DNA of 64,000 bases from Siphlonurus alternatus (Eukaryota; Arthropoda; Insecta; Ephemeroptera; Siphlonuridae): assembly GCA_949825025.1 (NCBI GenBank), contig OX463779.1, forward strand, positions 43,656,249 to 43,720,248, in the 5' to 3' direction. Shown piece by piece: positions 17,564 through 22,231 of this stretch (the first letter of the stretch is position 1; the number at the start of each line of letters is the position of its first letter). The notes beneath the pieces were generated by a model. The model was not told the DNA's origin. It saw only the letters and a program-made list of their open reading frames with translations, and did no database searches. The position numbers and the translations under genes are program-made.

Positions 17564-20500
17564 ATGGATGATGAAGCTGAAACCTACAAGCTATGGCGCA
17601 TCAGAAAAACTGTGATGCAGGTAGGTCTGCTGATGAAATATTGACATGAGATGCTCTGGGTCATCTGCTGCCATGGACTATAATGTATACATATATACTG
17701 TATTAACTGTATGAGTCTGTGTCTGTATGCATACTGTAGCTAGCTGGCATGCACTGCAGGAGTTTGTATGCATATTTGCATAACATTGTGCAACATATAC
17801 GGTTTAAATACAGCTGTATCATGTACCGATTCAGCAAATTATACAATTTATATTTTATTGAAAAGTAAAAGTACTGTATGCCCCAAAATTCTATTCCAAC
17901 AAGTTTGGTTTCCAGCGCTGCATGCAACCACCCCGTCCTTAGCCGCCACAGTTTAATTAAGTCTGATTACATTAGCCAGTACCGACCTGTATTAAGACAC
18001 CTTATAATTCCCAGCTGTGCCACGACCGAGGCTACCTGGTGACCCAGGAGGAGTTGGACCAGACGTTGGAGCAGTTCAAGGAGCAGTTTGGAGACAAGCC
18101 GAGGTGGACCTTTAATCTAAATTACAGTCCTTCAAGCAAGAGTTTATGCCTGAAATTTGCTGGAATTGACGTTTTGGCTTACATTTGCAATGATATTGCC
18201 AGCAATAAATAACGGAACAAATAGAAACTGTTCCAGAAATTTCCATGCATAACCTTTTGCTTAAAAGAAGGTGCTATACTGTGAAACTGTGCAGTATTCA
18301 TACACTGTAAGGACACAGCTCTTAATATTAAAACTATGCATACTTTACTGTATTTCCACCATGATTCCATTGTTCAATTAAAAAATAACCACAGTATGCA
18401 TACAGTAACGGAGGAGGGGGGGGGGGATGGTGAGGGATGGAGTATATACCGTTTTTCAGAGTATTATTTTGATCACAACTAATTTATTTGTTTATCAGCA
18501 TGCACTGATATGTGCTAAAAACATTATAAATATATCAGTCCATGATTCTAATATTACATATTTTTTCTAACAAAGTAATTAGTAAATGTTTAGGCACAAA
18601 CCTCAGTTGTCCATTACTTAGCGTCACCATTTCTACCACCGTGACTGGCCCTGGATTTCTCTAAAACAATGTTATGTGTTTGCAGTGAACGGCACCCGCA
18701 GCGCAGCGACTTGATTGTGCTGGTGGCCCACAACGATGACCCTACAGGTAATTAGTGCTCCCGTCAATAATTAGAGTAGTACTTAAAAGAAAAAAAAAAC
18801 TAATGTGTTTGAATACTTTGCATTGTAATTGCTTGCTCTCTAGTGACCAATTGCAGTGATAATGTCTCAGATCATGTAATCTCCAGGTAATAAAATAACT
18901 ATGTGTTCCACAGACCAAATGTTCGTATTCTTCCCCGACGATCCCAAAATTGGCATCAAGACAATCAAAATCTTCTGCCAGCGCATGCAAGACGAGAATA
19001 TTCACAGAGCCACAATTGTCGTTCAGACCGGCATGACTCCTTCTGCCAAACAGGTACCAACAAATTTTACAATTTTATTATTGTTGGAATATCCACTCTT
19101 TACATTATTTGCCAATATCATGAATTACTTTGTTGTAAAACTTGTTCTTATTTCATGACGTCTAAATAAATGTTCCTTGATGTCTGTGACAGTCTCTGAC
19201 GGACATGGCGCCCAAGTATGTGCTGGAGCACTTCCTGGAGTCGGAGCTTCTCATCAACATCACGGAGCATGAGCTGGTGCCCGAGCACGTCGTCATGACA
19301 CCTGACGAGAAGCAAGAGCTGCTCGCCAAGTAGTATCCTTTCTTGCTGCACGAGCTGCGTTCTTTGTACTGTAATCAGTGCAGTTTAGGGAATATTGTGT
19401 TTGGTTAAGAGAAATCATAAATTGTCTTGTCACTTTAGAAGATATTTGCTTATGTTACTAGTTAAAGAAATGTTCCAACTATTCGGGGGAAGGGGGAGAG
19501 TAATTTTTGATAGACAGGGGAGGGGGGCTAAGAAAAGGTAGGTACACTTTGGCCCCCACCCACCCTCCTCTGCTCATGAGAATGCTTTTAATTATACTAT
19601 GCCTTGTATTATAGATACTGGTATAAGATTTATAAGAACAGTATTAAATTATTCAAAGCTGAAAAATTTTCATTTTTAAATGAAAATAACAATTATATTA
19701 TTTCCCACAACCTAATCACATTTAAAACAGTGTTAATAACTAGACAAGTTTCTTGGGGAAGTTAGTAGACATCAGTTAGGCAGGGCTTTGTCCATACATG
19801 TGTAGTGTGTTGGTGATTGTCCTTGACGCAAGCAGCAAGCTGAAGGAGAACCAACTGATGAGGATACAGCAGGGTGACCCCGTGGCGCGCTACTTTGGCC
19901 TCAAGCGTGGCACGGTGAGAGCTCACACGTTGTTATGTCTCTAAGCTTTCAGACGGAGATGCTGTGGGTGGAGTCACGTCTTCTATTTTTTCTATCAAGC
20001 AAATGTTTGATTTATGCATTTTAAGTTTTTTAAGCAGCTCTTTCATTTTCCTACAAGTTGAAAGGCAAATTCATAACAGCTCATAAAAAATAAAATAAAA
20101 ACCACTCCTTATCTTCCATTTAAAGTAGAGTTCCTATCAGCTGATGTCAAAAAATGAAAACTGAGTTAGTATTTTTTAAAATAGTTCCAGTGCTCCTATT
20201 ACATATGTAACCGAAATCCAAAAAAATCCATCTCACATAGGTTCTCCAGACAAAAATTCCAAAGTCAGAGTGAACTCTTCGCTTAACATGGGGCCTTACC
20301 TAAAAAAGACCCTCGAATATCTAAAAAAAATACACCGTTAGGTGGTATGAAAAAAATATGTCAATGTTCTATGACCCGAACTTAAACAGAAAAGCAAATA
20401 AAAAGAAATTCGCTCGAATCCATTTTTCCGTAAAAAAATCAAGAAAATTTCCCATGTTAATTCCCATAAGAGTTTTTCTTGATTTTATGACGGGAAAACG

Positions 20501-22231
20501 GATTCGAGAATGTATGTTTTTTAAACAACTTTTGGTTAAAGCTTGAGCGATAGAACATGCTATATTTTTTTCAAACCACCTAACGGTGTATTTTTTCGAG
20601 ATATTCGAGGTTGTTTTTTCAGGGAAGGGCCCATGTTAAATGACGCATTCTCTCTGACTTTGGATTTTTTTTCTGGAGAACCTATGTGAGATGGAATCTT
20701 TTGGATTTCGGTTCCGTATGTAGGAGCACTGGAACTATTTTTAAAAAATACTAACTCGTTTTTTTGCTGTCTTTTTTGTAGTAGACCCTTTACTTTAATT
20801 GACATAGTAATGCTAGAAATATCAACAATAGAGGCTTCAAGTGCTCCTCGTCGGGAAAATTTTCTCCCTAAACCACCATGTTAGAAAAGTTAAAAATTTT
20901 CTCAATAACTATTAAAGCCTATTGGAAACCATCTCCTACCTCCCTATTTAGGGATCTCCTGATAATGAACCTCTAAAAGAATTAATTTCTCTGATGACAA
21001 ATGGCAATTTTGAGTTTTGTTTTATTTGTTTACATATGTTTGGATAGGATAGGATAATGGGAACACCGCAAAATTAACTGACTTGAAGCCTCTATGCTTG
21101 GTCTGGTTGTCAATCTTTTAAATCAGTTTTCAGGGTCAAAAAATGAAGAATAATGTTCATCTTGATGTCTGTCGATTACCTAATCTAATTCTGTGCCATG
21201 TGAATTACAGCAGCTCAAATTTCTAGAATTAATATATTCAAACTCCTTAGTTATTGAAATCTACACAGCAGTTATTGAGACATATTTTACTTCAAATGAA
21301 AAAAAACTGTTTTGTATGTTACTCACGTTTTCTTTAATCCCCATTGCTGTAGCATCTTTATGTTTTCTTAAATTGGTGAAGGAAGTCTCCTTTATTTATT
21401 GTCTTCTCCCTGCTCCAAAATTTGCTAGTTTCAGCTGCATTTCAGTATACAGAGCTCTGTCACTTAATTTTGTATTGTCTGGTGAAGGGTGTGATTATTT
21501 GCGGGTGATCCTTAACTAGCCAGCCGTCTGAAGGGAAACCACCTGCCGAGGATTCAGCGTGCAGATCCGATCTGCAAGTACTTTGGTCTGACCAAGGGAC
21601 AGGTAACGCCAAACGCTCGCAGAGTTCCATTAACGAGTGTGGCGTTGAAATTAACGAATTCCAGTAACTCTGTGTGTGATCATTTTTACAGGCTTACTAA
21701 CAAAATGTGTGAACGTGCATGTGTTTTTGGAGTTTGAAGAATGGTGTTATTTTGTTATCCTCAATTACCAATATCTGTTTAACATGATTTTGATTATTAT
21801 AATTATTTTTTATTAATGTGTTTTGAAAATGTTGTTAATCACTTTCATTCGTACTCCCCCCAACCCTCCCATTTTTTTCCTTATGAATGGGAATCAATTT
21901 CAAAAACTGCTATGCTTCTTTTTTCAAAAAAAATAAAATTCACACCATAAACTCAGCTTTACTTTCTCAGAACCTAATAAATATCAGAGAGCTTAAATTA
22001 AAATTCTAAATAAATATTTCACTCCCAGTAAATTAACATGAAAGAAATAAGCGACATTTTTTCAATTGACGTTATTGCAAAGTGTGTGACATATTTGCAG
22101 CCCTGTTTGCTGGTACGAGTACTAACATGTTCCGTGGTTGGGTTCTGATGCTCGCTCTGTTGCAGGTGGTGAAAATCATCAGACCCTCCGAGACTGCCGG
22201 ACGCTACATCTCCTACCGTCTCGTATGCTGA
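17564..22231 (+). CDS. Polr2e: RNA polymerase I/II/III shared subunit RPB5 (RPABC1)
   Basis: Exons: 17564-17620, 18015-18103, 18686-18747, 18914-19053, 19193-19329, then either 19836-19914 (6a) or 21524-21602 (6b), then 22166-22231. With one version of exon 6 the product is 209 aa, against 210 in human. The N-terminal jaw domain ([47 protein letters not shown]) and the C-terminal assembly domain ([17 protein letters not shown], then DPxxx[25 protein letters not shown]) are all recognisable. RPB5 sits in the lower jaw/shelf of all three nuclear polymerases and contacts the largest subunit. All junctions are GT-AG and in phase. The duplicated exon 6 is the unusual part. The RLVC ending resembles insect orthologues, from memory. 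Confidence 0.97.
19836..19914 (+). other. Polr2e: RPB5 alternative coding exon 6a
   Basis: 79 nt, entering in phase 2 and leaving in phase 0, acceptor AAGCAG and donor GTGAGA. It encodes the segment with [10 protein letters not shown] and [15 protein letters not shown] second AG three bases upstream (NAGNAG) would add one Ser codon. The sequence is close to the standard insect/vertebrate version of this conserved region. Confidence 0.9.
20119..20799. repeat. Foldback element, family C copy 2
   Basis: A palindrome of about 680 bp between RPB5 exons 6a and 6b. Ends are TTTAAAGTAGAG and CTTTACTTTAA, with arms pairing to near 20450 (for example AGGTTCTCCAGA with TCTGGAGAACCT). Same family as 664-1316. 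If transcribed it would form a very long hairpin between the two candidate alternative exons. Confidence 0.83.
21524..21602 (+). other. Polr2e: RPB5 alternative coding exon 6b
   Basis: 79 nt, same phases as exon 6a, acceptor TAGCCAG and donor GTAACG. It encodes [10 protein letters not shown] and [14 protein letters not shown]. It aligns to 6a without gaps: 15 of 27 residues are identical when the split first codon is counted. All core positions (RIQ, DP, YFGL, G) are kept. There is no stop and no frame damage. The polypyrimidine tract is weak. Confidence 0.85.

Follow-up and report, generated by a model that had tools for sequence, protein, structure and literature searches.

A duplicated in-phase exon pair in the RPB5 gene of the mayfly Siphlonurus alternatus and its candidate mutually exclusive use through U12- and U2-type splice sites

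Gene structure and the duplicated exon

The RNA polymerases (Pol) I, II and III have in common the subunit RPB5 (RPABC1/POLR2E), which is regarded as an invariant component of all three enzymes. In the mayfly Siphlonurus alternatus, the gene lies on the forward strand at 17564-22231 of the window, by which we mean the whole 64,000-nucleotide stretch analyzed here (GenBank assembly GCA_949825025.1, contig OX463779.1, positions 43,656,249 to 43,720,248), and it carries a duplicated, in-phase pair of exons, 6a and 6b, encoding alternative versions of one segment of the protein.

The joined reading frame, which matches Pfam PF03871 and PF01191, starts at the ATG of exon 1 (17564-17620), continues through exon 2 (18015-18103), exon 3 (18686-18747), exon 4 (18914-19053) and exon 5 (19193-19332, ending in ...AAGTA), passes through either exon 6a (19836-19914) or exon 6b (21524-21602), and closes with exon 7 (22166-22231), which includes the stop codon. 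The alternative exons cover the same residues, 163 (in part) to 189; both are supported by the reading frame and by protein comparison, and 6b also by the neutral simulation described below. The product has 210 residues with either exon, and the Rpb5_N and Rpb5_C domains score 121.7 and 116.8 bits in isoform a and 121.6 and 114 bits in isoform b, where the curated Pfam cut-offs are 27 and 23.5 bits. Across exons 1-5, the product is 79-91% identical to the animal RPB5s listed, the top value among the fetched proteins being that of Ladona (90.8%), and the protein resembles animal RPB5 more than it does a side paralogue, with Drosophila and human as its best chains. The segment encoded by exon 6 (residues 163-189) falls in the C-terminal domain, which is essential and, in yeast, makes contact with the largest subunits of all three polymerases (PMC6690254).

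An earlier sequence-only reading had proposed 6a and 6b as candidate mutually exclusive exons, and its coordinates, the length of 79 nt each, the AG/GT borders, the lack of stops and the phases (entry in phase 2, exit in phase 0) all hold. So does the identity of 15 of 27 residues, made up of 14 of the 26 whole-codon residues plus the Tyr formed across the junction. At the nucleotide level the exons agree at 46 of 79 positions, and of their 26 whole codons 8 are the same, 6 differ synonymously and 12 encode another residue. The window showed no third copy, its best six-frame scores falling from 143 (6b) and 134 (6a) to 22. One border had to be corrected: exon 5 ends at 19332, three bases after the previously given 19329, a position that would turn Lys-Tyr (162-163) into a single Asn, although Tyr163 is invariant in all 32 aligned RPB5 proteins (alignment A1). 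Mending this border exposes a donor that fits the U12-type consensus at nine of nine positions, and thereby reveals the likely mechanism of exon choice.

That the pair could be an assembly artefact or a misreading is extremely improbable; the sequence does come from one assembly, but copies newly arisen in assembly would hardly differ from each other, whereas these two diverge as described and have no long match in their flanks, and the exon pair recurs in Ladona. A recent duplication was rejected on the same comparison, which left out short low-complexity matches and returned a single exon-to-exon match of 31 nt at 81%.

The sequence-only reading had also pointed to the reading frame. Inclusion of both gives 712 nt of coding sequence (remainder 1) and omission of both gives 554 nt (remainder 2), so that each shifts the frame as claimed, yet the argument is weaker than it was made to appear. 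The double product stays open for 266 residues and meets its stop within the last exon, while the frame of the product lacking both exons ends at the last junction, having run for 162 residues. By the usual rule of nonsense-mediated decay (NMD), stops in the last exon or at the last junction do not make a transcript a standard target; neither aberrant product therefore qualifies, a frame shift coupled to NMD is ruled out as the main lock, and the class of the splice sites becomes the more convincing one.

Splice-site classes around exons 6a and 6b

U12-type introns are defined by their donor and branch site and have no distinct pyrimidine tract (PMC3584512). The consensus used here consisted of the donor [AG]TATCCTTT and the branch site TTCCTTRAY near the acceptor, without a strong pyrimidine tract. 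On the forward strand, the donor shared by both alternative introns, GTATCCTTT (19333-19341), agrees with the U12 consensus at 9/9 positions and with the U2 consensus at 3/9, and its only occurrence on both strands of the window is this one, at 19333. Candidate U12-type branch sites precede both alternative exons by motif match, TCCTTGAC (19820-19827) at the 6a acceptor and TCCTTAAC (21509-21516) at the 6b acceptor; each fits the branch motif at 8/9 positions, the branch A lies 10 nt (6a) or 9 nt (6b) ahead of its exon, and pyrimidines make up 9/17 positions at both.

On the downstream side, the donors of 6a, GTGAGAGCT (19915-19923; U2 7/9, U12 3/9), and of 6b, GTAACGCCA (21603-21611; U2 7/9, U12 4/9), are U2-like, as is the exon 7 acceptor region (22131-22165), which has no U12 branch site (best branch match 5/9). 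The two unwanted joins would thus cross class, with the U2-like donor of 6a facing the U12 branch site of 6b, and the U12 donor of exon 5 facing the U2-like acceptor of exon 7. As read from the sequence, only 5-6a-7 and 5-6b-7 would be free of introns with sites of mixed class.

These motifs are rare. Within the window, only the acceptors of 6a and 6b have a TCCTTRAC whose branch A is followed by an AG at a distance of 8-21 nt (5 of 6542 AGs, all at these two places), and relaxing the motif to TCCTTRAY adds two more places, including the exon 5 acceptor. In Markov control sequence, TCCTTRAY preceded 65 of 65,996 AGs, and GTATCCTTT appeared 9 times in 1.28 Mb. The 456-Mb genome also contains matches to components of the minor spliceosome, namely three to U12 snRNA (best 115.9 bits, gathering score 53) and one to U6atac (107.2 bits, gathering score 33). 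Mouse Polr2e contains a U12 intron (PMC7312986), which may correspond to intron 5 of the mayfly gene.

It is rather unlikely that exclusion depends mainly on some other device, such as a repressor protein, competing RNA structures in the introns or the frame itself, with the U12-like motifs of 6b inherited and not decisive. Competing RNA structures are common in arthropod exon arrays (PMC6071210), and the intron between 6a and 6b holds a large, imperfect inverted repeat (20157-20763), whose arms include stretches of 108 nt (86%) and 58 nt (91%); besides, the choice between 6a and 6b needs something else to set it in any case. The repeat, however, resembles a mobile element, probably of the kind of a miniature inverted-repeat transposable element (MITE), and the U12 donor and the two U12 branch sites are near-perfect as well as uncommon. 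We therefore favor splice-site class as the principal lock.

b-like segments in other insects

Protein relatives were taken as the best 120 of 1557 and the best 120 of 1219 matches, from a collection clustered at 90%. Since the b form is about 94% identical to the a form, b forms may hide in such clusters, and their non-listing in other species does not speak against their presence there. Of the 244 fetched proteins, 243 contained sequence aligned to exon 6, which gave 244 segments, 126 of them distinct.

Looking for both exons in relatives, as the sequence-only reading had proposed, brought out b-like segments in three other insects, and both versions in one of them. The Ladona fulva model P0003 (J437_LFUL010364), of 252 residues, contains an a-like segment followed by a b-like one, the order of the exons in the window; automatic gene modelling would be expected to join the two where it encounters both exons, and the model has probably mis-annotated a mutually exclusive pair. 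b-like segments also occur in Lycorma delicatula (P0004) and Anabrus simplex (P0121), in both cases in a protein named isoform X2. Among the 126 distinct segments, the 6b peptide is closest to the Anabrus b form (19/26), and it shares 14-15 of 26 residues with the a forms of insects and human that were compared. All four b forms, those of the window, Anabrus, Lycorma and Ladona, have Ile179 together with Cys180 or Ser180. These residues are found elsewhere too, some in protists (Ile179 in 16, Cys180 in 8 and Ser180 in 19 of the 244 segments), and are thus not exclusive marks of the b form.

Of the 2592 codings for the residues that precede the b segment in the Ladona model (SLTIL, and Ser from the AG plus the first exon base), 144 would place TCCTTRAY at branch distance, and 554 of 20,000 random open six-residue stretches can do likewise, such that a U12 branch site within this apparent read-through is suggestive only. 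The simplest reading of the distribution would be a single duplication before the split of Odonata, Orthoptera and Hemiptera, while independent duplications may instead have produced the b forms.

A b form also appears able to be an RPB5, to judge from structure prediction. For the Lycorma b form, the predicted structure has a mean predicted local distance difference test score (pLDDT) of 89.4 and a predicted template modeling score (pTM) of 0.80; its top match is the Drosophila Pol II RPB5 (template modeling score, TM, 0.95), and its first twelve matches also include RPB5 from solved structures of human Pol I and Pol III.

Signs of selection on exon 6b

Several features of 6b suggest that it has been kept as coding sequence. 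Between 6a and 6b, the NG86 method gives a nonsynonymous distance (dN) of 0.48 and a synonymous distance (dS) of 1.45, and third codon positions differ most, at 16 of 26 codons, versus 7 and 10 at the other two positions. GC content is 0.595 in exon 6a and 0.557 in exon 6b, compared with 0.339 in the intron between them. In 20,000 simulations of neutral drift starting from 6a, the copies retained a mean of 8.2 identical residues and 67% of the runs acquired a stop, whereas the fraction of copies with at least 32 nt differences that kept at least 14 identical residues and no stop was 0.00015. 

Several observations nevertheless weigh against two selected isoforms generated by a U12/U2 lock. The exon 5 acceptor (19173-19192) carries TTCCTTGAT, a 9/9 match to the U12 branch motif, in an intron whose donor, GTACCAACA, fits the U12 consensus at 4/9; a branch motif can thus occur without a U12 donor and by itself is no proof of intron class, and this one may be due to chance or be left over from a U12 intron that has since become U2. 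The value of dS is near saturation, and of the three dN/dS methods LWL85 and YN00 gave no estimate. The name X2 of the Anabrus and Lycorma protein records is only an indirect sign of alternative isoforms, and the Anabrus protein has an unusual N-terminus. A FastTree phylogeny of 128 segments of 26 residues left the four b forms ungrouped, and 26 residues are too few for dating the duplication by a tree. Two further observations concern 6b itself: its Gly167 is found in none of the 244 other segments, 242 of which have Glu or Asp there, and a genome-wide Rpb5_C search matched exons 5, 6a and 7 and not 6b. The same search found no other locus over threshold among the 5 candidates scored.

These last two points, along with the greater divergence of 6b from the RPB5s compared (14/26 residues shared with the human segment, versus 21/26 for 6a), are what would be said for 6b being a dead or dying tandem duplicate that is not spliced into stable mRNA, leaving 6a as the sole working exon. 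We regard this as improbable, given that 6b has no stop or frameshift, keeps its splice sites and U12 branch site intact, has exon-like GC, retains family residues beyond the neutral expectation and has b-like counterparts in the three insects named above.

Other features of the window

RPB5 is accompanied in the window by exons of a ZIP zinc transporter (2084-3016, reverse strand) and of a CoA-transferase III (7622-8837, forward strand). An open frame of 1005 residues at 11524-14541, with endonuclease and reverse transcriptase domains, represents a non-LTR (long terminal repeat) retrotransposon and is followed by a TAAA repeat. Two 5S rRNA matches on the reverse strand, at 59310-59431 (43.5 bits) and 50920-51034 (38.7 bits), barely exceed the gathering score of 38 and are perhaps 5S-derived short interspersed nuclear elements (SINEs).

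Proposed mechanism and its meaning

The duplicated in-phase exon pair is confirmed, and mutually exclusive use is still its best reading, strengthened by the splice-site classes and by the b-like segments of three insects. We hold with considerable confidence that the gene gives rise to two RPB5 isoforms through mutually exclusive, U12/U2-locked use of 6a and 6b, that the pair is old, and that both versions have been kept by selection. In the proposed mechanism, the minor spliceosome would join exon 5 to either 6a or 6b, after which the major spliceosome would link whichever was taken to exon 7. Splice sites of the U2 and U12 classes are as a rule incompatible (PMC3584512), and because they do not pair, the mismatch of class would bar both the joining of 6a to 6b and the skipping from exon 5 to exon 7, with the change of frame acting as a second, weaker barrier. 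The occurrence of b-like segments in Odonata, Orthoptera and Hemiptera points to a pair that is old in winged insects and to the retention of both forms by selection.

What the two isoforms would do differently is a matter of weaker claims. Expression of 6b, its pattern among tissues and any specialization of the polymerases are, for now, inferred from the genomic sequence. The b form would most likely alter the seating of RPB5 on the largest subunits, or its contact with a partner, in some tissue or stage. It is also conceivable, if doubtful, that both exons are used for the control of expression, or neutrally, and that the RPB5 forms are interchangeable and leave the polymerases with equal properties: the Lycorma b form is predicted to fold as an ordinary RPB5, and many b residues are found singly in other RPB5s, but long retention across insect orders and a shared b signature suggest more than redundancy.

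Returning to isoforms that differ in function, a much bolder and quite tentative extension is that, over hundreds of millions of years, winged insects have assembled each of Pol I, II and III in two versions distinguished by the assembly domain of RPB5. Tissue or stage would decide between the versions at a step carried out by the minor spliceosome, and both the composition and the supply of all nuclear RNA polymerases would depend on U12 splicing. Even without this extension, if an animal gene does make two RPB5 forms that are alike outside the domain contacting the largest subunits, heterogeneity of the core polymerase would become testable in whole animals by the deletion of a single exon, and the making of every nuclear RNA polymerase would be tied to the activity of the minor spliceosome. 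The gene would also be a clean example from nature of two spliceosomes imposing mutual exclusion, in a geometry that mirrors that of JNK.

Comparison with known systems

Judged by titles and abstract openings, the full-text literature searched under RPB5, POLR2E or RPABC1 yielded no description of alternative RPB5 exons; one paper that mentions POLR2E and mutually exclusive exons (PMC12309053) is, as far as its excerpt goes, unrelated. Two RPB5 forms in one organism are known from plants and trypanosomes (NRPE5 and RPB5z), where they are tied to different polymerases (PMC6690254); those paralogues are separate genes, whereas here one gene carries alternative exons. Tandem exon copies of which one enters each mRNA occur in the insect nicotinic acetylcholine receptor (nAChR) alpha6 and in other exon arrays, which differ from RPB5 in that no U2/U12 lock is apparent from their listings.

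The exclusion logic itself has precedents. Among human mutually exclusive exon clusters, 5 (0.79%) show U2/U12 incompatibility, the same principle as proposed for RPB5, and the term "polr" is absent from the main text of that study (PMC5740500). In TMEM87a/b, exons 11 and 11a are mutually exclusive through competing U2 and U12 sites, but the competition in that case is between a U2 acceptor and a U12 donor, and both gene and geometry differ (PMC8329584). The closest likeness is to the JNK genes MAPK8 and MAPK9, whose exons 6a and 6b are likewise tandem, similar exons with interlocked U2/U12 sites, such that one choice excludes the other (PMC8329584, PMC3584512). The lock is thus known from JNK, TMEM87 and human clusters, while the gene in which we propose it is new and unexpected, though databases carry "isoform X2" records. 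JNK is a kinase, and its alternative exons are preceded by U2 acceptors and followed by U12 donors; RPB5 is a polymerase subunit and mirrors this geometry, in that a single U12 donor upstream serves both alternative exons, each of which has its own U12 acceptor and U2 donor.

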